From Serendipita indica DSM 11827 (lineage: Eukaryota > Basidiomycota > Agaricomycetes > Sebacinales > Serendipitaceae), in NCBI GenBank assembly GCA_910890315.1, contig CAJVGD010000017.1, positions 1 to 64,000 of the forward strand: 64,000 nt of DNA, given 5' to 3'. This document shows positions 10,473 to 47,141 of this stretch, piece by piece. The notes beneath the pieces were generated by a model. The model saw only the letters and a program-made list of their open reading frames with translations, made no database searches and was not told where the DNA came from. Within the stretch, counting starts at the first letter, position 1; each line of letters opens with the position of its first letter. The translations under genes were made by a program, and so were the position numbers.

Positions 10473-11424
10473 ATGCCAAAGTCGAAACGCGCAAAAGTCG
10501 GTATGTTCTCCATTATGTCTCAAGGACAGCTGATGTAGGACCATGATGGCTAACGGACACTTTTCGCGTCTTTTTCATAGTCTCGTTGACAAAGACGGAG
10601 AAAAAGGGCCGAGCAAAAAAGGAGGCGTTGGTTCAAGAAGTGGGTCATTGTCATTTGGAGATAAAATCTCATTGCAGTACCTTTAGATACAAGAAAACTT
10701 GGACAAATGGAGATATCTCTGGCTGTTCGAGGTCGGCCATATGCGCAATGCGCATCTCAAAGACATTCGTGCCGATTGGAAAGAGTATGTCGCATCAGAC
10801 ATTTAGGAGTACAGCTCGCTAACCTTTTTAAGGACTGGTCGCATGTTCTTTGGACGCGTGAGCGTCATGGCTCTGGCACTTGGAACCTCCCCTGAACGCG
10901 AGCACATGCCAGGATTGTCAAAACTCTCAAACCATCTAAAGGGACAAGTCGGACTCTTCTTCACGTCATGGGATGTCTCCGAAACACTCGACTACTTTCA
11001 CTCTATCCGCAGACCAGAGTTTGCACGCGCGGGATGCGTTGCAACACAGACATTCATAATACCCTCGGGTGGACCATTATCGCCGATTTTATCGCAAGAA
11101 GATAAGGCTGCTGGGATCGAGAGGAGCACACCCTTTCCGTCGGCAATGGAACCTCAGCTACGAAAATTAGGCTTGTCGACGAGATTGGAAAAGGGGAGCA
11201 TTATGATGGCTGCCGAGCAGACGGTTTGCAAAGCTGGGGACAAGTTGACGAGCGAACAAGCGCAGATCCTCAAGCTGATGGGTGTCAAGATGAGCGTGTT
11301 CCGCGTCGGTCTACGGTGGCTGTGGGATAAGGAGACGGGGGATGTCAAGGAATATGACGCGCCCCTGGAAGATGAAGGCGATGCCGAAGAAAGCGAAGAG
11401 GAGGACGAGGAGATGGATGAATGA
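10473..11424 (+). CDS. MRT4: ribosome assembly factor MRT4 (P0-like)
   Basis: Nucleolar 60S assembly factor related to stalk protein P0; it holds the P0 site on pre-60S particles. The short first exon MPKSKRAKV is joined by a GTATGT...CATAG intron to VSLTKTEKKGRAKKEAL, then to LDKWRYLWLFEVGHMRNAHLKDIR, and then via GTATGT...TTTAAG to TGRMFFGRVSVMALALG. The central block has the P0-like core (LFFTSWDVSETLDYF, ARAGCVATQTF, LRKLGL, SEQAQILKLMGVKMSVFRV). The C-terminus is acidic (DEGDAEESEEEDEEMDE), as usual for MRT4. All four exons join in frame. Length is about 235 residues, normal for the family. Confidence 0.92.
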
Positions 11425-12448: not shown

Positions 12449-15400
12449 ATGTCCGACGAGGACGATGAAGAACGCATCACAATGACGACAACTCCCGCTC
12501 TCCCCACTCTGGACTCGCCAGGAGGACAACCGGCGGCTACAAGAAGCCAATCCACAGAGTCGACGGTTCAACACGGTGCTGGCAATGTTGAGGCAAGCAT
12601 AAATCGCGATAAAACAAGCCAAGTAGAACGCATCAACATCCTCGTCGTTGGCCAACCTGCTACAGGCAAGACTGGACTCGTCAAACTCTTCTTGGAGACC
12701 GCCCCGTTATCACTCCAAGTTGGAGGCCCATCAGATGGACGACAACAGCCAGAATCAGGTTCTGAACATCCCGGACGGCTTGGAGACGATCCCAACCCAG
12801 CGGCTCTGCTTGCCCGCTGCGCCGAATTTGCTAGTTTTACATCGTTTTGCCCGACGACGGCGCTCTCGACGCTCGAAATCCCTGTCAAGGTACAAAAATC
12901 AGCGGATGGCTCTCCAGGGACAAAGACTCGAATCCTTTCCTTCATCGACACTCCTGGATTGCATCTCCATCTTCCTCACGAGAGAGAGCAGGTGGTCGAC
13001 AGTATTCTCAATAGGATCACAGAAGGATTCGAAAGCGGTCTAAAGGCAGACACTGTGCGTCCTCTCTGCCACATCCCGCCGTGTCGACTAATCCCGGCTG
13101 CTTTTGCCGTTTGCTCGCAATACCTTTACGACATTTAGGAAATAGCAGCACGTGATAATCACATTCACTTGTAAGTTTGCCTCCAGCCACCGCGCCTCTG
13201 TCCGCCTCATTGTTCGCGCGCCTTGTGTCGGGTCCAGGTTTCGTTCCTTGCGAACATAGACTCACGAGCTCTCTGAAACAGGTGCCTCTACCTATTGGAT
13301 CCAAACTCTGTTATTCCTTCGGAGACTCATCGTCTTTTGCACCCGGACCTTTACAATTCCTCACTCGCACACGCCCGTCAGCGAATACATCAGGCGACTC
13401 TCCCAATATCCGCCACTTCCCATCTCCTCCTTGCTGGCATGCCTGAACGGCTCTCCTCACCAAATGAACCACTTGATACAGGCACCACCACCAGGTACTA
13501 CGATGCGGAGCCAACTTCTCCGTATAGCCAAATGGCCATTCTACCAGAAGAAAAGGAGTTGATTCAGCAAATTGCCCGTCGTGTGCCCGTCCTACCAATC
13601 ATTGCCAGGGCGGATGAGCTGACGGAGAGCCGCCTGGAAGCTATCCAGGAGTGCGTGAAGAGGGAACTTCAAGGAAGCACGGAAGCATTACTCAAGACTC
13701 TACTGGAGGATTCGCGCACGCGTAGCTCGGCCGACGAACCCATGATGGAATCAGCTCCACGACAACAAGATAGGATAGCTCCAGCAATTATGTTACCAGA
13801 ATCGTACCATCATGGAGATGGGGCTGGTCGAGCCACCACTAGACCCTCAAAGGAAGCATATGCGGAGAGATTTCGCGCGGAAGTGGGCGAGGGGTGGCCC
13901 CTGGATGAAAACTCGATTCAGGATAGCCGGAAGGACCTCGTTCGGTCGTATCGCTGGGGTACAATAAACGTCTTGGACGCGAAGTGCTCAGACTTTCTGC
14001 CACTCCGAACCGTCTTGTTGCATCCAAGAATCCGAGTACGTGATTTAGCTCATAGCATATAGCAAAGACCGATCTTCTTCAGGAACTGCGTGACCTTGTC
14101 ATGGAACGATATCTGCCAGTATATCTCGCCGACATACAAGCCCCACCATCAAAGGAGACAACTGTTCCACGGCATCGCCAGGAGCCATCTTCTGGCTCAT
14201 CGTTTGCTGCACCGTATTCACCTCTATCCTTGGCCCATACGCCTGGATTGCCACCTTCTCCAACGGCACCATTCCCTCAGCCCAGATCTCGTTCATCGCT
14301 CACCTCGCACACTACGGGCCCTACTCGTGGTACGCATCAAGAAGAGCCCGCACCAGTCGTCTCTCCGGCACTCGTCACACCTTCTGCTCGTTCTTATCCA
14401 TCGCGTGGCAGTATCCAGTTCGCGGTCCCATACTCGTACAAGCCCTCGGCACCTTTGCCACCAGGACAGGCTTCATCCTCATCTAGTGGGTTTGTCGGCG
14501 GACCACCAGTTACCACACCCTCGGTTCCAATCAGATGGGCGGATCAGACTACACCCTTGGGTCGAAGGGGGAGTGGGAAGAAGTTATATGTTTCAGGTAA
14601 GCCTAGTCCGCTTTACTTCGCGGCGAGTCTAACCAGAACAGGTGCATCGTCTCCCGTCCTCACTGCGCCAGCGCCCATGCAGAGTACTTCGAATCCAGTC
14701 TATCAAGCAAGATTGACAGCCAAATCTCTGATGGGGAACCCAGAAGCCACTCTTGAACAGTCAGCTTCTTCAGGTACATCAGCACTCACTACTGGAGTAC
14801 CCAACGTTGCCCCACAGACTGGTTCAATTTACCCGGCAAAGTCACGGACAGGTCGCAAGATCGCCGTGGCATGTAATTTTTGTCGATGTGAGCACTCCTC
14901 GTGCTCATATTTAGAGGTTCTCATCTAGTTATTATAGCACGCAAGCTTAAATGCGATGGTGTCCGGCCGGTGTGTGGACAATGCAGTCGACGTGGCGTTC
15001 CATGTGCATATGAAATGACTGTGAAGAAGCGAGGAATGGGGAAGATGACGCTCGCGGCTACAGCCGTTGAAGCTGCCGATAGCGGCGACGGGAGCGGTGT
15101 AACACCCCCGACATCAAGCATACCCCCCGCTTCTGCTGCGGAGACAACGCGAGTTCTTCCCAGTGGCTCGAAGCAAATACAGTGGCGCATAGACGTGCGT
15201 GGATCCGATCCTTCGACTCTCACTTCTGTGGGCAACGTCGGCCCTGCTCTGCCAGGAGGTACCACTGAAAGCACGCAACCTCAGTCGCCGCTAGCAGCTG
15301 ATCTTCAAGCGGTACTGCTCTCCGAGATTCCCTCTCGAGGGTATGCGTGTCAATTCTGCCGCGCGCGGAAGACGCGATGCGATGGTACGCTTCCCAAATG

Positions 15401-16277
15401 CTCTAATTGCGCAAAGAGGGGTCAAGCTTGCGTCTACCCGCCTTCGTATTTCCACGCTGCGTCGGCGTCTGGTGAACATATCGCCTTTACTTCTTCATCT
15501 GGATCAAGTGATCAGCAAAAACCGCCGACAGATCCTCTGCAATCCTCTGGGTCGGCAGCGACAGCGGTGTCCAATCCGACGCCTCGTTTAGGCACAAGTG
15601 GGGTTTCGTTGCCTCCCCTTAGTTCACTTCCCTTGGATCAGCCGCTTCGGGAACGATCTTCGTCCTCCCAGTCGACTTCAACGTCGTATTGGCCTGGCCG
15701 AGCTGGAAATGTATCTGGCACGCTCTTGCCCTCCCGACAGCCTCCGCTTTCTCCCTTGAGCACGTCGCGTCCATTCCCGTCATATGGAAGGTCGACTGAT
15801 CGAGGTCCAGACTCGCGAATGGCTACTTCCAGCTCTCGAACGAGTACATTGTCTCGACCTCCGCTCCTCATCTCGACGTCACCTACCGCCCCTGCTCTAC
15901 CTCCGAGTGGTTCGAATATCTCGCCTTTGACACTTAGTCAGAGCACACCTTTTGCGATCCCATTCCCCCGCCGTGACTCTGGCGAGCAGCAAGGGCCTAT
16001 AGGGTTGATGAGAAGGCCAAGCACAGCTGAATCCGCGAGCCAAAGCTACACGTGGCGGGATCGTAGCTCGGTGAGCTCGTCATCTACACGCGGTGGAGGA
16101 CCGTATGGAATGGGTGGAGAAAGAAAACGCAAGGCCAGCGGTTCAGAGGGTGGTCAGGACAAGGAAGACGAGGAGGATGCCTCGGCTCCCTCGCCCCCAA
16201 AGCGAAGGAGAATCTCTGGTGATGAGCCTTCTTTGATAGGAGAAAGAAGATCGTCCAACGATGAAACCAGGAAATAG
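12449..16277 (+). CDS. septin-type GTPase fused to two Zn2Cys6 binuclear-cluster domains
   Basis: Six exons join in frame (introns 13055-13138, 13171-13281, 14036-14082, 14597-14641, 14888-14937). N-terminal half: P-loop GQPATGKTG (about residue 70), switch II FIDTPGL, a septin-like IHLCLYLLDP strand, G4-like ARAD in PVLPIIARADELTESRL, and septin-unique-element-like SYRWGTINVLDAKCSDFLPLR then ELRDLVMERYLP. A Pro/Ser-rich linker of about 250 residues follows. Next come two fungal C-x2-C-x6-C-x6-C-x2-C-x6-C clusters: ACNFCRSRKLKC...VCGQCSRRGVPC (about 14870-15010) and ACQFCRARKTRC...KCSNCAKRGQAC (about 15345-15435). The rest is low-complexity Ser/Pro with a basic KRRR near the end. The septin C-terminus and the first cluster lie in the same open frame (14083-14887) with no stop between them, so a single polypeptide is the simplest reading. 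GTP binding and DNA binding are inferred from motifs. An internal transcription start making the Zn2Cys6 part alone cannot be excluded. Confidence 0.75.
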
Positions 16278-18301: not shown

Positions 18302-18727
18302 GGACATAAATGGGTCATAATAGGCTTTATGTGACTGTTCGTCCTTTTCATCTACTGAGCACACGCATTTATTTCTTTTTTAAACGTAATTAAGAGATAT
18401 CAATTCAGGACTAAAAGGGTAAGACCGGTGAACCAACCCCGGCGAGCTCGTATCTGAGGCTGCGGCTCAGTTCGAAAAGAGAGGAAAATATGGAGGCTGG
18501 ATTGAGGCTGGAAAATAATTTTTGAAAACGTTTAGGATATAGCGCAAGTACGCGAACAAAGGAGGGCTCCAAATAGGTGTGCAAGGGACCCGTGCGGAGA
18601 ATCCTCAATGAACGCGCAGTTAGTCGATATGACATTCATTGGGACATGATTACGAAAGCAGCCTTCTTGGCCGGCTGTCCGGCCCATATTACGGTCAGCG
18701 CTTGCTCCCGACCACATCTTGCGCGTT
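18302..18727. other. spacer between tandem F-box relatives
   Basis: 426 bp with AT-rich stretches (TTTCTTTTTTAAACGTAATTAAG near 18375) typical of 3' and 5' flanks. No gene seen. Confidence 0.4.
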
Positions 18728-19885
18728 ATGCCTGGCCTCTCTGCATTCGAAAGAGTCCCGGTGGAGGTGCTGAGCTACATATTCCTCATCGTCAGAGATG
18801 AGCCTGCCTATGACCCTGTCGCGCTTCCGAATCTCGAGTTGGTGTGTCGCTCATGGGCGGTGACATTGGCTCTATATCCATCTTTCTGGTGTCATTTGTC
18901 GATTAGCATTGGATGGAGACCCATCGGGTTCTGGCTAAGCTACACCAAGGCGCATCTCCGACGCGCTAGATCGGACCAACTGCTAGTCATTAAATTTGCC
19001 ACTAGCCCCATCAGACGTTGGTGGCTGGAGGAAGGCGGTTTCGAGATTTACCAGAAACTAGTCCAGACACTCACGGGAGAGCATGGAGAAGTGGCCCAGA
19101 GATGGAAGCGACTCCAGTGCGAGCTATTCGGTGGATTCGAGTCTGTTGTCCAGGACACCCTTTTTATATTTCCCACTCCGAACCTTGAATGGCTGGAGCT
19201 AGAGGAATTTGTCTCGCCTAGAGCCTTCACCATGCTGCCCTCGACACCTTCTCTTCGACACCTGCGCCTCACTAACTGCATACACCCAATCCCTCAAGGT
19301 ATCTCTCTTGGGGATATTAAATCCTTGAAGTCCCTCGATACAAAATCCAAAAGAGTTCCACCACTGTTGCCTCTACTTCCTCGAGCTACAACCCTTTCCA
19401 CCCTCAAACTGTGGAGTCTCTTAGAATGGCAGTTCGTGCCACGGACTACACTCCCAGCACTTCGAGAACTCTGCCTCGCTGGTCCCATATTGCCCGATGC
19501 CTTTCGGCATTTTGATGCACCCAATCTAGAAGTCTTACGTTTTCGGACAGACGAAGACGTCGCCACCCCTATATTTAACTGCCTGACATTTCCCTTTCAG
19601 AATATCTGTCATCTCGATTTGACTTGCCGGTGGCGAAATAAATTAGGACAAAAGTCTCCTGAACCCCGTAGAAAGCACTTTCAGTCAGTAAAACTCCTCA
19701 AGGCGTTCACCAATATTTCAACTATGGAGATACACAATTATGACGAAACTTGCGAACTTTGTTCGACCCTCGTTACTCAAGCGAACCTACAGACGGACGC
19801 AGCAGTGCAGTTGATCTGCCACTCAAAAATGGAATATCGGTCGATTAGAGTTGCTCCGCTCATGTACCGTATATTCCAATCATAG
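18728..19885 (+). CDS. F-box / leucine-rich family protein
   Basis: Intact single-exon gene of 385 residues. The F-box lies at the N-terminus (VPVEVLSYIF ... LELVCRSWAVTLALYP), then a body shared with the two relatives in this window: GWRPIGFWLSYTKAHLRRAR, IRRWWLEEGGF, LTGEHGEVAQRWKRLQ, and leucine-spaced segments (LRHLRLTNC, LSTLKLWSL, LEVLRF, ICHLDLTC). By family it would be the substrate-recognition subunit of an SCF ubiquitin ligase, binding Skp1 through the F-box; substrate unknown. ATG 18728 (MPGLSAFERVP) is chosen because the F-box begins seven residues later. It lies in tandem with the broken relative just upstream. Confidence 0.8.
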   Translation: MPGLSAFERVPVEVLSYIFLIVRDEPAYDPVALPNLELVCRSWAVTLALYPSFWCHLSISIGWRPIGFWLSYTKAHLRRARSDQLLVIKFATSPIRRWWLEEGGFEIYQKLVQTLTGEHGEVAQRWKRLQCELFGGFESVVQDTLFIFPTPNLEWLELEEFVSPRAFTMLPSTPSLRHLRLTNCIHPIPQGISLGDIKSLKSLDTKSKRVPPLLPLLPRATTLSTLKLWSLLEWQFVPRTTLPALRELCLAGPILPDAFRHFDAPNLEVLRFRTDEDVATPIFNCLTFPFQNICHLDLTCRWRNKLGQKSPEPRRKHFQSVKLLKAFTNISTMEIHNYDETCELCSTLVTQANLQTDAAVQLICHSKMEYRSIRVAPLMYRIFQS

Positions 19886-35765: not shown

Positions 35766-38700
35766 ATGTCCACTACGGCCCAGGGAACAGCCCAGGCCGC
35801 TGTAGAGACCACAGAGGTCCAGCAACTCACGCCAGACACCCTCAACGATACACACTCACCCGCCCCCGCGAAGAAGAATAGATGGTCCCTCAAACCAGAA
35901 AAGCACAACGAAAAGCAGCACCATTCACGCTCTGCTACTCCCTCTGACAATGGTACAAACACTACGACCACAAAGATTAATGGCAAAGGTCAAGTCAAGA
36001 AGGAGCTAAAGGCCCTTGAAGACGCTGCAAATAAGCAAAAGGAGGAATTCCCGCCCGTTCCCTTTTTCGCACTCTACCGTTTCACGACTAAATTCGAGGT
36101 ATTCTCAACCTCGTTGGCATCGTCTGTGCCGTCGCAAGTGGTGCAGCCCAGGTCAGTATTTCTGATGGCGCCCATTTCTCCCCATCTGACGATCTTTGAC
36201 AGCCTCTCATGACGCTCATGTTCGGTAATCTGACTGTCGCTTTTGTCGACTTTGGCACGGCCGCCGCAAACGCGTTCCAGAGTGGTGCCTCTCCAGAAGC
36301 CTTTGCTGCCCTCCAGCAAGCCGCAGACCACTTCCGTAGTGTCGCAGCCAAAGATGCCCTCTATCTCGTCTGCATCGGTCAGTTCCGCAGCATCCACGCA
36401 GCCGTTCGCAGTCACTCACACCCTATTCGCAGGTATCGGCATGTTTGCCACAACCTACCTCTACATGGTCACATGGATCCGGACCTCGGAAGTCGCCGCG
36501 AAGCGTATCCGTGAGCGCTATCTGCAGGCCATTCTCCGCCAGGACGTTGCCTTTTTCGACACTGTCGGCGCTGGAGAAGTTGCCACACGTATCCAGACCG
36601 ATACCCATCTCGTCCAGCTCGGCATCAGCGAAAAGGTACCCGTCGCGGTTTCGTTCATGGGCGCCTTTGTTGCCGGTTTCATCCTCGCCTTTGTCCGCAA
36701 CTGGAAACTTGCGCTCGCATGCGCGTCCATCGTGCCATGCATTGCCATCACGGGTGGCCTGATGAACTTTTTCATCTCAAAGCTCAAGCTTGCCACCCTC
36801 GGCCACGTCGCCGAGAGTGGTAGTTTGGCAGAAGAAGTCATTTCGACCATTCGCACGGCCCAGGCCTTTGGCACACAACACAAGCTCGCCGGAATGTACG
36901 ACGTCCACATCGAACGCGCGCACTCTCTCGACAAGAAAATGGCCGTCATCAACGGCCTTGGCCTTGGTGTCTTTTTCTTTGTCATTTACAGCGCATACGG
37001 TCTCGCCTTTTCGTTTGGCACCACACTCCTCTTGCGCGGAGAGGTCGATGTCGGTGTCATCGTCAACGTTTTCCTCGCAATCCTCATCGGCAGTTTCTCC
37101 CTTGCCATGCTCGCCCCCGAACTCACGGCCATTTCCAACGCTCGTGGTGCGGCGAGCAAGCTCTTTGCCACTATCGACCGTGTACCGCCCATCGACTCTG
37201 CCTCTCCAGACGGTCTCAAGCCCCACCGTGACTCGATCAAGGGCGAGATTGTCGTCGAGGATGTTCGTTTCAATTACCCTTCCCGTCCGGATGTGCCTAT
37301 CCTCAAGGGTGTCACGCTCACGTTCCCACCCGGCAAGACGGCTGCCCTCGTGGGTGCTTCAGGAAGTGGCAAGTCGACCATAGTCGCCCTTGTCGAACGC
37401 TTCTACGACCCGCTCGAAGGTCGTGTGCTTTTGGACGGTACGGATATTCGTGAGCTCAACGTCAAGTGGCTTCGTAGCCAGATTGGTCTCGTCTCGCAGG
37501 AACCCACTCTGTTTGCTACGACCATCCGTGGAAACGTCGAGCATGGGTTGATCGGTACCGGTATGGAGAACCTCCCCGACGAGGAACGGTTTGCAAAGGT
37601 CAAAGAGGCGTGCATCAAGGCCAACGCCGATGGTTTCATCTCTGCTTTGCCAGACGGTTACGATACGCTCGTTGGTGAACGTGGTTTCCTCTTGAGCGGT
37701 GGCCAAAAGCAGCGTATCGCCATTGCCCGTGCCATCGTTTCGGATCCAAAGGTCTTGTTGTTGGACGAAGCAACCAGTGCATTGGATACTCAAAGCGTAC
37801 GTATTTATATCTCCGAACATAAAACATACTCATCCCTTGCGCAGGAAGGTGTTGTGCAAAACGCTCTCGACAAGGCTTCCAAGGGACGTACGACGATCAC
37901 AATCGCGCACCGTCTTAGCACGATCAAGGACGCCGAGACCATCTTCGTCATGGGTGACGGACAGGTTCTCGAACAAGGAACGCATGCCGAACTGTTGCGC
38001 GACACCGAGGGACCCTACGCCAAGCTCGTCGCAGCCCAGAAACTCAGGGAACAACAGATGCAGGAAAACGAGATCAATACCTCTGGCACGAACACGCCAC
38101 TCCCACCGAGCTATGGCGGTCCTACCCAAAGTGGCGAACATGGTTTGGAAAGCGACCCAGCGGCCATGATGAAGGCACGTATGAAGGCACAAGCAGACAA
38201 GGAGAAGCAAATCGAGGAAGAAGCTGCCAAGGAGAAGCCTCTTGGACGTACGGATACGAGCAAGTCTCTTGCCAGCGAAATCCTCAAGCAACGTCTCGCA
38301 GCCGAAGCTGGAGATGGCAAAGGCGAAAAGGAGTATGGAATGTGGTATATCCTCCGACGCATGGCCATTATCAACAAGGACAGTTGGAAACACTATGTAC
38401 TCGGATTCACTGCCGCTGCCTGCACGGGAATGGTCTATCCAGCGTTTGGTATCGTCTATGGTACGTTCGTGTGCTACAGAGCTTTTTCATATACTGATTT
38501 GTCCCAGGTCGCGCTATGGAGGCGTTCCAGTCGACAGGCCGCGAATTGCGCGTCAAGGGTGATCGCGCTGCCCTTTGGTTCTTCCTCATTGCTATTGCGT
38601 CGACCATTGCCATCCAGCTACAAAACATGGCGTTTATGCGCACCGCTGGAGATCTTTCCTTCCGTCTGCGCCACCTCGGCTTCCGCGCAATCCTCCGCCA

Positions 38701-40310
38701 GGACATTGCTTATTTCGACGACGAGAAGCACTCGACGGGTTCGCTCACGTCTAGTTTGTCGCAGAACCCCGAAAAGATTTCGGGTCTTGCGGGTGTGACG
38801 CTCGGTGCCATCGTCCAGGCCATTGTCACCGTCATCGGAGGAAGTGTGATCGGTCTCGCGTACGGTTGGAAACTGGCCTTGGTTGGCATTGCATGCATTC
38901 CATTCGTCATTTCCGCTGGATACGTCCGCCTTCGTGTCGTCGTCATGAAGGACCAGATCAACAAGCATGCGCACGAAGATAGTGCGCAACTTGCGTGCGA
39001 GGCAGCTGGCGCAATCAAGACGGTCGCGAGTCTAACGCGTGAAGAGGATTGTTTGAGATTGTATAGCAAGAGTCTCGAGGAGCCACTCCGGGTGTCCAAC
39101 CGCTCAGCATTCAACTCGACATTCTGGTTCGCCCTCTCGCAATCCATGGTCTTCTTCGTCATCGCCCTCGTGTTCTGGTACGGCTCTCGTCTCGTCGCAA
39201 GCCTCGAGTACAACACATTCCAATTCTTCGTTTGTCTCATGGTATGTCTTCCCGTCGCTTGTAGCACTCGAGTACTGATTGCGATGACAGAGCGTAACGT
39301 TTGGTGGTGTACAAGCCGGCAACGTCTTTGCGTTTGTGCCCGACATTTCCGAATCCCACATTGCTGGCTCGAACCTTGTCGCCCTCTTCGACTCGACGCC
39401 CGAGGTCGACTCCGAGTCGACAGAAGGCAAGAAGATTGAGAAAGTACGTGGACGTATCGAGGTCAAGGACGTTCACTTCCGCTATCCAACGCGTCCTGGT
39501 GTCCGTGTCCTTCGTCACTTTAACCTCACTGTCGAACCGGGCACACACGTCGCGCTCGTCGGTGCCTCTGGAAGTGGCAAGTCGACTATCATTCAGTTGA
39601 TCGAACGATTCTACGACCCTCTCGCGGGAGAGGTTGTTGTAGATGGAGAAAATATCGCCGACTTGAACGTGCAAGAGTACAGGAAGAACCTCGCCCTAGT
39701 GTCTCAGGAGCCGGTATGTTCAACTCCTTTGTCCCGCGCGTTTTAGTCCTAACAATTCACAGACTTTGTACGCCGGAACGGTCCGCTTCAACATTTTGCT
39801 CGGTGCTACCAAGCCAGTGGAAGAGGTCACACAACAAGAGATTGAAGCCGCCTGCCGTGACGCCAATATCCTCGACTTTATCAACTCGCTCCCAGACGGA
39901 TTCGAGACTGAAGTCGGTGGCAAGGGATCCCAACTCTCTGGTGGCCAAAAGCAACGTATCGCGATTGCCCGTGCTCTCTTGCGTAATCCATCGATCCTAT
40001 TGCTCGATGAAGCCACGAGTGCTCTCGACTCTAACTCGGAACGTGTCGTACAGGATGCATTGGATCGGGCTGCAAAGGGACGGACGACCATCTCGATTGC
40101 GCACCGTCTCGCGTCGATTCAAAAGTGCGACAAGATTCATTTCGTCAGCGAGGGACGTATTGTGGAGAGTGGAACACATGACGAATTGTTGAGACTCAAC
40201 GGCAAATAGTACGTTCATCTCCTTCGCCCCTGTTGATTCAGGAATACTGACACGCGCTTCGCAGTGCCGAGTATGTCCTCTTGCAGGATTTGTCTGGACA
40301 GGCGGCCTAA
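35766..40310 (+). CDS. ABCB-type full ABC transporter (MDR / Ste6-like); one apparent frameshift
   Basis: Membrane exporter with two (membrane domain + ATPase) halves, about 1,300 residues. Cytosolic N-terminus [18 protein letters not shown]...; first membrane domain from about 36070; first ATPase with Walker [10 protein letters not shown] (about 37350), signature LSGGQKQR (37694), Walker [14 protein letters not shown]-loop IAHRLSTI. Linker about 38040-38330; second membrane domain from about 38400; second ATPase with GASGSGKST (39565), LSGGQKQR (39936), [19 protein letters not shown]; end [15 protein letters not shown]. Introns near 36152-36203, 36380-36431, 37798-37844, 38461-38508, 39241-39290, 39715-39763 and 40209-40265 all splice in frame. 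In TM helix 1 the text reads KFEVF then [16 protein letters not shown] in another frame: one base seems missing near 36103. Apart from that it looks functional. Expected role: export of drugs, lipids or a peptide; substrate unknown. Confidence 0.9.
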
Positions 40311-42017: not shown

Positions 42018-45000
42018 TGAGAGGAACGTTGTGAATTTCTCAGATTTTACTTCGCACTTCCTCGCCGCCGCTGCCTTACGCGTTCTCGCCGCAAACGCAC
42101 GCCAAGGAGAGCTCCCTACAGTTCTATACCACAGGAGACTATCGATCGCTCGCTAATACACGTACTCTCGGGCTTTCTAGCCCTCGCCGACTTCATACAC
42201 GTAACGCCCTCGTTGTTCAGCAAGGCTTTCTAGCCTTTAATCGATCTCTTACGAAAATTAATATCATACCATATCATTTCCTGAGCGTTTCGATAGTCCC
42301 CAAAGCCTCCTTTTCTTTTGCCACTTCGATTTTCGTCACCGTCGTCCTCACCGCCGTTGAACACCATCCGCCATGTCTGGCAGCTCCAACACGCCCGAAC
42401 CGTCGTCCAAGACGTCAATACATCCGTCATTCATTCGGCTCCCCCCATGTTGCACCAGCAGTGATCTCGAAGCCAAACGAGGCGCTCGCTGACGCTGTTC
42501 CTCAAGCTGAAGGAAAGGACAATGTCCTGACGGCACGTAACTACCAGTGGTGGTTCTCTGAGCTCGACGATGCCCTTCTGTACGGCGACGTCTGGTTTCG
42601 CTCTTCGCCAAGGACGGAGGAGGCAATCGTCCCAGCGTACCAGATCCGAGCGACCCGAACCTCGTCCTTTATCATGCAGCCAACAAAGCTGCTGCAGCGT
42701 GGATCAAGACGGCTGCTGGCTACACGCATCGCGCTATCGTCCAGAAGTTCTCCGAGAAGGGCGATGGCGTTGGAATGTACGACGCGCTGCGCAACCAATT
42801 TGGCAAGATGGCCCCCGTCTCGCTACTTCGATGTGCAGTCTCTTTCCGTCTCCGTGACAGTTCTCTCCCCGTCGTTGGCACCAATTGGTCGGAACGCTGC
42901 AGCGCAATCGCGAATCTGAAGAACTCGCTGCGTGACAATTGCGCGGGTATGTCCATAGAGGACTTCATCGACGAAATGGCGTTCCACACCCTCATTTTCA
43001 GTCTTCCCGACGGCGACGAGTTCCAGCAACGCCTCATTGCCAATCTTGATTCGGGCAAGACGACGTTTGAGGACGCGCGCGAGCAGCTCATTAAGCATGC
43101 TCTCGTGAAGACGACCCGCGCGGAAGCAAACGGCTCCCCTCCCGACGCCGCCCACGCCGTGACAGAGTCCCCATCGATCGCAAAGGGTAGTCAGGCTCTT
43201 CGAACGGCGCCACACTCTATTACGTATGAGGAGCTCGCCGCCGCTGTCCAAGCCAACATTCGTTGCTTCCAATGTGGAGGACCGCATTTCAAACGAGACT
43301 GCCCGCAGCTGCGCCATGGCAACGGTCCACAATCAATCCGATTCCAAGTGCGCGGAGGTCAGCAGACCGGACGGTTCATTACTGGTCGCTTCAACAACGG
43401 CAACGGCTTCCAAGGCGGTCAAAGAGGTCACGCGTCTGGTCAAGCGCCTGCTCGCTGGCGCGACAACGCGAATGCTGCTCAAGTCGACAACTCCACCACC
43501 ATTGAACTTGCTCTGGACGATCAGTCCTCGCAGTCATCTTTTCCTATCGACGCCATCATCGATGGAATTACGATTGATTTCGCTGGAAACGTTAGTTCCC
43601 TCCCATCTCTGCCCAACCACCGCTCTGATGCCATCGCCGATTCAGGGGCCTCCACCCACATGTCCTGCGTCCGCGAGCGGGTTCTAGATATGAAGCCCAC
43701 TGATCGTATGGTGAAGTTGGCAGATGGAACTCTTGTTCCGGCAGAGGGCATTGGGCATAGCTTATTCCATGCGTCGATTAATGGTGTGCTGGCTTCGAAA
43801 CAGACTGTTTTCCCCAACGTTCTCTATGTGCCTTCTCTCTCAAACAATCTTATCTCGACTGGGGCTCTCGTCGAGTCTGAGGGATACACACAAGAGTACG
43901 ACAGAAAAGGGATGAGATTTTTCAAGGACGGCGTACTGCAGTTCACAGCGACTGTCGGAGACATGCGCGTCCCAGTGCTGGACGGAAAATTTGCCCTTTC
44001 GACCCATGAGAATGCTCTGGCTGCAACGTCCTCATCGGCGCCGCTTGCGGTTTGGCACAATCGCCTTGGCCACCGCAGCTACGATGCTCTGGCGAAGCTC
44101 AATTTGCCGCTCTCTGATCGAATTGTGCCAAGGACCTGTATTCCATGCATCAACGGAAAACTCACTCGCGCTCCCAGCACCCAACTCGCTCGACGTGCTA
44201 CTCGCCCTCTCGAACGCATATTCTCGGACGTTCATGGGCCAATGAGAGTGCAAGGTCGTCATCAAGAGCGTTATTGGGTCACCTTTCAAGACGACTACAG
44301 TCGCTTTGTTGTGCTATACTGTGTAAAGTCGAAGTCGGACGTCTTTCGTTGCTTCAAGGAGTTCGTCGCCTGGTCCACAAATCAGATGAACACGCGAAGG
44401 ATCAGCTTCGATGAAAACGACATGCGCACAGTTGTTCGTCGACTTCGAGATGACAAAGGTGGCGAGTACATATCGCGGGAGTTCGATGAGTTCTGCGCGG
44501 CTCTTGGCATTCAGCGCGAGCATACAATACGCGACACTCCTCAACAGAATGGACCAGTTGAGCGTTTCAACAGGACTCTGTCTGAAGGGGTCGCTGCACT
44601 GCTCAACCAGTCAAGGCTTCCCGCATCGACGTGGGTAGATGCCGCCAGCGCCTTTGTTCACGTGCACAATCGAATGCCCTCGTCATCCACGGATGGAAAG
44701 TCTCCATTCGAGCTTTTCAATGGTGAAGCTCCATCGTTAGATCGGATGCGGACCTTTGGATGCGAAGCATGGGTGCATCTCCAACGTGATCAGCGCTCTC
44801 CATCACTGGATCATGCTGTTCGAGCTGTCTTCCTGGGTTACCCGCCAACTTACAGTGGGTGGCGCTTCGTCAACCTGAGCACTGGGAAGGAGGTCATCTC
44901 AAACTCAGCGGTATTTGTCGAAGACGTCTTTCCCGGTCGACTGCGCGCCGATGCAAAAGGTGTCGACTACACGTTTACACCTGGCATGCTCGACAGTGAC

Positions 45001-47141
45001 GATTCTCCTCCATCATCTCCACATCCCGCTCCCGCTCCTGCTTCCATTCCTCCTGCTCCTCCTCCTCTTTCCCCCACCCTTCCTACTTCTCCCTCCCTAC
45101 TGCAGAACCAGTTGTTCCAGCCACTGTGAACACTGGTGGTCCTAATCTCGTCTTTGCACCGGGCAACCGTGTGGAGATCCTGCTTCCGCCACCCAATCTG
45201 GGCACCAGCCAGCCGACTGCGCCGCCGCCACCTCTCTCGAGAGGAGAAGAGCCTGAAGAGAGACTATGAAACGCATCCTGGTAACCATCTGAGCCGCAGT
45301 GAACGACAGAGTCGTGCCAAAGTCAACTATGCCGAGTCGTCTGACGATGAAACGGCTGACTGCGCGTTCTCTACAGGCGTGATTGACAATCACGACTGGA
45401 TCCCGTTCAGGTGCCATGGATTATGTGTTTGCTGTCACTGAATCTCTCGATCCTCGCTCTTGGAAGGAGGCTATGTCCCGTCCTGATGCGAATAAATGGA
45501 TCAAAGCGGCTCATGAGGAGCTCGAGGCTCTTCTGAAGAACGGCACATGGCAGGTCGTGCGTCTTCCCCAAGGCAAAACGGTGCTCGGGAATAAGTGGGT
45601 ATTCAAGACGAAGAAGGATGCCACGGGAAATGTCGAGAGACACAAAGTCAGACTCGTCGCAAAAGGATTCCTTCAGAAGCAGGGCGTCGATTTTGACGAG
45701 ACCTTCGCACCGACTGGAAGCCTGGCAGCACTTCGCACTGTCATTGCCACCGCGACCGAGCTCGATTGGGAGATTCACTCAATCGATATCTCTTCGGCTT
45801 TCCTAAACGGTGACATGGATGCTGAGGTTTACATGGAACTACCTGAAGGCGTTAAGATTCCGCTGGGCGAACTTGACGGCTTAGAGGAGGGAAGTGTGAA
45901 ATCTCTCCGCCTCCTCAAGGCACTCTATGGCCTGAAACAAGCCGGACGTCGATGGTCGGTGAAGCTCCATCAGGCTCTCACAAAGCTAGGCTTCGTCCGC
46001 ACCGTGCTGGAACCCTCGTGTTACCTATACGAGAAAGAAGGCATAAAACTCGTCGTTCCGGTCTATGTTGACGACCTCACGTGCGCGTGTGCGTCGCAAG
46101 TGCTAATTAGGTGGTTCAAGGACGCTCTCGAGAAGGAATTCGATCTTCGATACATGAAGGAGACAAAATTTGTCCTTGGTATCGCTGTCGACCGTGACCG
46201 AAAGTTGGGCAAGACGTTCTTATCTCAAACGAGCTACATCAAAGAGATCTCATACGCCTTCTTCGGCACGCGCAACGTCCACCCACTCTCAACTCCGATT
46301 GCTCCTGGTCTAAAACTCACCAACGAAGACGCGCCACAGACTCCGAACACCGCGGACGTCAAGCGAATTCAGGAGTACACCGGCAAGCTCCTATACCTTC
46401 AACGAGCCACGAGACCCGACATCGCGTTCGCTCTTCATCAAATCTGCCGTTTCACTCAGAACCCGGGTCGCGTCGTGATGGAAGCTCTCAATGGCCTCAT
46501 GCGATACGTCCATGGGTCAATGCATCTTCGTCTCACATACACGCGCAGTGGGAAGAACGAGCCACAAGCATTCGAAACATTCAGCGACTCGGACCATGGT
46601 GGCGATCCAGTCACGCATCGATCAACGGGCGGATTCGCAGTTATGATGTGCTCTGGAGCAGTTAATTGGGGCTCGAAGCTTCACAAAACTGTCTCGCTTT
46701 CGTCCACTGAGGCCGAGTACATCACTGCGTCGATCGTCGGATGCGATATCATGTGGCAACGCGGATTCCTCGAAGAACTTGGCTTCCCTTCTACCGGGCC
46801 GTCTCCTATCTATCTCGACAGCAACTCTGCTGCGCAAGTCGTTCGCAATCCTGAACATCAGAGCACGATGAAACAAGTCAATCGTCGCTACCATTGGATT
46901 CGCGAGCGCGTAGCGAAGGAGACATCGAAGTTCGTCGCGTAGCTGGATCTGATAATCCCGCCGACATCTTCACGAAGCCACTCAACCGTATCAAGTTCCT
47001 CGAGTTTCGCTCGATGCTCGGTCTGCAGTAGACCACCCTTCATTATCTTCTCTATTCCCTTCATTGCTTTCCTTACGGACTCTGATTCGTTCGTTATGGA
47101 CACTGGTTACGCTCATTTGATTACACTGTATTCATCGAGTC

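Follow-up and report, generated by a model that had tools for sequence, protein, structure and literature searches.

Structure of the fused gene

The window analysed here is a 64,000-nucleotide stretch of the Serendipita indica DSM 11827 genome (assembly GCA_910890315.1, contig CAJVGD010000017.1, positions 1 to 64,000, forward strand). At 12449-16277 on its plus strand lies a gene that joins a septin-type GTPase domain to two Zn2Cys6 zinc clusters in a single reading frame. Septins are cytoskeletal GTPases. A first-pass annotation had proposed this combination, and it was borne out by the spliced gene model: the coding sequence comprises six exons (3492 nucleotides) with one terminal stop, the predicted 1163-residue protein matches Pfam Septin (65.4 bits; cut-off 26.2) and, in two stretches, Pfam Zn_clus (69.2 bits; cut-off 21), and a database protein, P0001, matches the spliced product. 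The product is almost certainly one fused septin-type Zn2Cys6 protein.

The five introns are 84, 111, 47, 45 and 50 nucleotides long, each bounded by GT..AG. Exon 1 (12449-13054) encodes a disordered N-terminus and the part of the septin G domain that holds G1 and G3, and exon 3 (13282-14035) the remainder of the G domain; both are supported by the spliced model and the P0001 match. Between them lies a 32-nucleotide micro-exon (exon 2, 13139-13170) encoding EIAARDNHIHL, with a phase-0 intron before it and a phase-2 intron after it, which the septin domain also requires. Exon 4 (14083-14596) encodes the last septin helix, ELRDLVMERYLPVYL, and the beginning of a disordered linker, as judged from the spliced model and the predicted structure. 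In the spliced model, exon 5 (14642-14887) continues the linker into the first half of zinc cluster 1, and exon 6 (14938-16277, stop codon 16275-16277) carries the second half of cluster 1, cluster 2 and a disordered C-terminus. The exon layout first proposed thus stood in outline; in detail, cluster 1 does not lie on one exon but is split over exons 5 and 6 by the intron at 14888-14937.

P0001, returned by a single-protein database search, is a 1152-residue protein from a 4,620-nucleotide contig. It is identical to residues 12-1163 of the gene model except for two substitutions, S226L and A785T, and crosses all five junctions. Because it lacks intron residues at these junctions, P0001 must stem from spliced RNA or an equivalent record, and we infer that it represents a transcript. 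A search of the S. indica genome with P0001 gave seven matches, five of them exons of the fused gene (the micro-exon is too short for listing). The other two were weak, one to a septin exon on contig C20 and one to a zinc cluster on contig C44; no second copy of the fused gene was found among the best candidates scored in this 24.7-Mb genome.

Domains and motifs of the fused protein

All motifs described here lie on the plus strand. The septin part contains a canonical GxxxxGKT P-loop (G1, VVGQPATGKT; 12644-12673, residues 66-75), a G3 motif DTPG (12947-12958, residues 167-170), a G4 motif ARAD (13604-13615, residues 321-324; the septin form is AKAD) and the septin element RSYRWG (13943-13960, residues 434-439). 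By spacing and alignment, the arginine and tryptophan of this element are taken as the equivalents of CDC3 R360 and W364, in the numbering of PMC6323724. Fold comparisons of the predicted structure show the domain to resemble septins more than other GTPases, in agreement with the septin identity first assigned; they also rule out a mere coincidence of motifs.

Cluster 1 (14872-15005, residues 713-740) and cluster 2 (15348-15431, residues 855-882) lie beyond a long linker and share the canonical cysteine spacing C-x2-C-x6-C-x6-C-x2-C-x6-C. Both fall in blocks with predicted local distance difference test scores of about 86-92 and about 91-94, respectively. Two basic runs near the C-terminus, RKRK (residues 1113-1116) and KRRR (residues 1139-1142), within 16122-16211, are candidate nuclear localization signals; a PPKRRRISG stretch is common to the fused protein and its relative P0002. 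Fungal_trans (PF04082) was not among the four Pfam families found on the protein at E <= 1. Neither the Pfam scan nor the structure models revealed a coiled coil, including the coiled-coil tail of septins, although no dedicated coiled-coil test was run.

Conservation of the fusion

The single-protein search returned seven matches, all with both domains. A profile search gave 208 matches at E <= 1e-3, and each of the 120 listed carried both domains, as did 25 of the 27 matches to a profile built from P0002 and P0001. Among the matches listed, 125 of 127 relatives contain both, and the order of septin domain followed by clusters is kept in many species. Orthologues that are consistently two genes, the outcome named in the first-pass annotation as speaking against a fusion, are not what these searches recovered.

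In a scan of the 127 listed proteins for the cysteine pattern, 110 had two clusters, 10 had one, four had none and three had three. Unspliced or broken gene models account for at least some of the shortfall: in the records of P0123 and P0039, the intron of cluster 1, placed as in the fused gene, has been read through. These two records also bear on whether two adjacent genes have been read as one through faulty annotation or assembly, which we consider extremely improbable. Errors of this kind do occur, an apparent database fusion of Aspergillus nidulans aspE with its neighbour being one (PMC11238149), but here P0001 spans every junction, nearly all listed relatives have both domains, and the intron recurs at one site in cluster 1. 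A pair of adjacent genes was ruled out by the spliced P0001 match together with the relatives.

The orders represented by the named relatives listed we take to be Polyporales, Russulales, Agaricales, Boletales, Atheliales, Gloeophyllales, Jaapiales and Hymenochaetales, all within Agaricomycetes; P0084 is the orthologue in Coprinopsis cinerea. No relative from outside this class was recognized among the named matches within the 120 of 208 listed, which does not establish absence elsewhere, as the number of candidates was capped and the profile search with P0002 and P0001 did not return even P0001. In the tree described below, P0001 has the Serendipita records (order Sebacinales) as its closest neighbours (support 100/99). 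Source annotations of the relatives range over 'GTP binding protein', 'Septin-1', 'Cell division control protein 11', 'Zinc finger transcription factor' and Zn(2)-C6 protein; such differing names (for example, for P0011, P0037, P0062 and P0100) show that annotation of the family is inconsistent. Among the public models of family members, some also seem to be over-long, merged or broken.

The fusion exists and is conserved, yet it is poorly described. The first-pass annotation knew of no described example, which was nearly right: PoZCP55 of Pleurotus ostreatus is reported to have three septin domains and two C-terminal zinc clusters and to form its own clade (PMC7295025, PeerJ 2020). It has the same domain list as the fused protein and, on that basis, is a putative orthologue. 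In the available text, PoZCP55 is mentioned briefly in three places, without a family-wide survey or an analysis of fold, GTPase motifs or function. A second description of a septin-Zn2Cys6 fusion was not recognized in listings of the openly accessible literature, where most papers were judged from the listing itself: 'zinc' does not occur in the available main text of the septin surveys PMC6323724, PMC11238149, PMC1931588 and PMC8801916, and the available parts of PMC12194055, PMC4624876, PMC10815960, PMC4035324, PMC10287680 and PMC3963935 describe no such fusion. By its own account, one survey derived its criteria from known septins and may therefore have overlooked novel diversity, and one criterion excluded conflicting domains such as DNA_binding (PMC6323724). 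Septin surveys may thus miss septin-zinc-cluster proteins.

GTPase motifs in the two lineages

Motifs were compared in an alignment of 90 of the 127 proteins, the other 37 (near-duplicates and over-long or doubtful models) having been dropped by eye without a fixed rule. Five rows are of the window type (P0001, P0002, P0123, P0124 and P0125) and 85 come from core Agaricomycetes. Window-type rows that cover the sites have GxxxxGKT (3/3) and DTPG (4/4), and the G4 motif of this clade is canonical as well. Among core rows, the P-loop is shorter by one residue in 78 of 85 (the other seven are unreadable, mostly odd N-terminal models), and the G3 glycine is lost in all 85, being replaced by serine in 81, alanine in three and proline in one. 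All 85 core rows nevertheless retain the P-loop lysine, the P-loop threonine or serine, the G3 aspartate and the G4 aspartate, which confers guanine specificity. The septin-element arginine is present in 83 of 85 core rows (88/90 overall) and the tryptophan in 84 of 85 (89/90 overall). An arginine finger (PMC11238149) was also sought, but the alignment is gapped in that region and nothing is claimed for it.

We read this pattern as loss of switching or hydrolysis in core Agaricomycetes with the interface kept; nucleotide binding may persist there. In most mushrooms, the septin-derived domain is thus probably a pseudo-GTPase, an example of a septin losing its catalytic character while its interface residues stay, with an intact-motif lineage available for comparison. 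The degenerate P-loop and G3 could also mean that only the zinc clusters are functional and that the G domain is a relic in decay, but the uniform conservation of the family speaks against this very improbable reading. The first-pass annotation had offered two mechanisms, a link between septin or GTP state and transcription, and a degenerate GTPase used for dimerization. Judged from the motifs, these may apply to different lineages, the former to the clade of the window, where the motifs are canonical, and the latter to core Agaricomycetes, where they are degenerate.

Relationship to other septins

The S. indica genome encodes four canonical septins, whose best yeast Protein Data Bank chains are Cdc3 (C1), Cdc10 (C16), Cdc12 (C12) and Cdc11 (C14, only partly pieced together); for the C1 septin, the best score of all is with animal SEPT7. 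The fifth septin, a stand-alone protein of 636 residues, is encoded on the minus strand at C20:44500-49500. Its GTPase motifs are intact and it contains large acidic/basic insertions; no zinc-cluster pattern was found within the 5 kb examined around it. This C20 septin is the only septin of the genome that P0001 matches at E <= 1e-3 among the best candidates scored. Its gene, too, contains a micro-exon, of 47 nucleotides versus 32 in the fused gene, and in both the preceding intron is in phase 0 and a phase-2 intron falls inside the leucine codon of HxHL; the four canonical septins run through this point in one uninterrupted frame. A weak septin-like match at C10:866431-866658 (22.4 bits) falls below the Pfam cut-off of 26.2.

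In a tree of 39 rows, including 29 of the 85 core rows chosen by hand, the split between the septin-zinc-cluster proteins plus C20 and the Cdc3-, Cdc10-, Cdc11- and Cdc12-like septins has support of 100/100, subject to warnings of long branches. No order of window-type fusions, core fusions and C20 is favoured: approximately unbiased tests of two alternatives gave p values of 0.444 and 0.546, and the grouping in the free tree has support of 43/0. By elimination against the four yeast groups, C20 is probably the Group 5 (AspE) septin of this fungus. Group 5 septins of filamentous fungi are reported to be divergent, with coiled coils lacking or weakly predicted (PMC1931588), and a homomeric G-dimer has been speculated for AspE-type septins (PMC11238149). 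C20, the closest stand-alone relative found, would fill this slot and lacks the zinc-cluster pattern.

Proposed function

The protein can be set against two known kinds. It shares predicted fold, G1/G3/G4 motifs and septin element with the core septins (Cdc3/Cdc10/Cdc11/Cdc12), from which it differs in its attached zinc clusters, large insertions in the G domain and divergent branch in the tree. With GAL4/HAP1-type Zn2Cys6 factors it shares cysteine spacing, and its zinc region matches HAP1/CYP1, LAC9 and GAL4 chains; in contrast to these factors, it has two C-terminal clusters per chain, preceded by a septin-type G domain, and no Fungal_trans domain was found on it. Fungal_trans is common rather than universal, occurring in 43 of 66 P. 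ostreatus Zn2Cys6 factors (PMC7295025).

The chances seem to us about even that the protein is a transcription factor in which the septin-derived domain serves as a dimerization or regulatory module, nucleotide-sensitive in the lineage of the window. Zn2Cys6 factors often dimerize through a coiled coil. The fused protein would be nuclear, its two C-terminal clusters would bind DNA, and the septin-type domain would stand in for the coiled coil or the regulatory domain that such factors usually have, pairing monomers via the septin G interface. As no coiled coil was seen and the septin interface residues are retained, a G-interface dimer is the simplest substitute, and we hold this mechanism tentatively, at slightly less than an even chance. 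A dimer of two-cluster chains would present four clusters. In the lineage of the window, the septin domain could bind and hydrolyse GTP, which would make pairing nucleotide-dependent; in core Agaricomycetes, where the phosphate-handling motifs have decayed, it would probably be a constitutive dimerization or partner-docking module. A bolder and unlikely version is a GTP-gated factor, in which pairing across the G interface, dependent on nucleotide, or short polymers of the septin kind would set the number of clusters aligned on DNA, a switch that later mushrooms froze into a pseudo-GTPase scaffold. If so, GTP or septin state would be tied directly to transcription in an early-diverging lineage of Agaricomycetes. 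In any case, one conserved gene of mushroom-forming fungi links a septin fold to clusters of a DNA-binding type, and it is a candidate, ready for knock-out, for a connection of transcription with cell architecture or GTP state.

Alternatively, the protein might be a tethered, latent factor whose septin domain docks on cortical or septal septin structures, keeping the clusters from the nucleus until remodelling; this, too, seems doubtful. Retention of fold and interface residues while the nucleotide motifs decay is what a docking module predicts, and the divergent septin AspE of A. nidulans depends on three core septins for normal localization (PMC3963935). AspE was not, however, found among the stable components of core heteropolymers (PMC3963935), and C20 and the fused domain are no more than putative AspE-type septins. 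Basic residues are also few before beta-1, with three lysines or arginines in about 20 residues of P0001 and 0-6 in the six other members compared, among them none in P0002 but four in P0124 and six in P0010; the region before the septin G domain is poorly conserved in Groups 3 and 5 (PMC6323724).

Several observations weigh against the transcription-factor reading. P0124 and P0125 (Serendipita sp. 399) lack a zinc cluster, but their contigs are 2,880 and 2,993 nucleotides long and the P0124 record is flagged as partial; they are therefore no evidence of two separate genes. The equivalent of CDC3 H374 is cysteine in P0001 and P0002; it is histidine in the other three window-type rows and in 76 of 85 core rows. 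A G-domain profile of the core fusions ranks C20 (254.9 bits) above P0002 (222.0) and P0001 (135.2), and ranks the canonical C1 septin (101.4) above two Serendipita rows (97.1 and 91.2). A single common fusion is thus likely, but the G domain does not prove it; the scores reflect either fast evolution of the window clade or a history with a second fusion or loss. The status of P0001 as a transcript is read from its spliced state. Finally, a shorter isoform could arise from a downstream start such as Met648 or Met666, both in frame upstream of cluster 1, and retention of the 45-nucleotide intron (14597-14641) leaves the frame open. That alternative starts or splicing would also yield a free zinc-cluster or free septin-like protein is nonetheless improbable.

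Neighbouring features in the window

The other features described are all on the plus strand. Upstream of the fused gene, 10807-11424 encodes a protein with ribosomal L10P insertion and L10 domains, presumably the ribosome-assembly factor Mrt4. Downstream, a frame at 18650-19882 is F-box-like; its Pfam match (21.4 bits) stays below the threshold of 24.3 bits. A long open frame at 36234-38795 encodes ABC transporter membrane and ATPase domains, and at 42562-46939 two open frames hold fragments of a retrotransposon (gag_pre-integrs, rve and RVT_2), which we take to be of Copia type.
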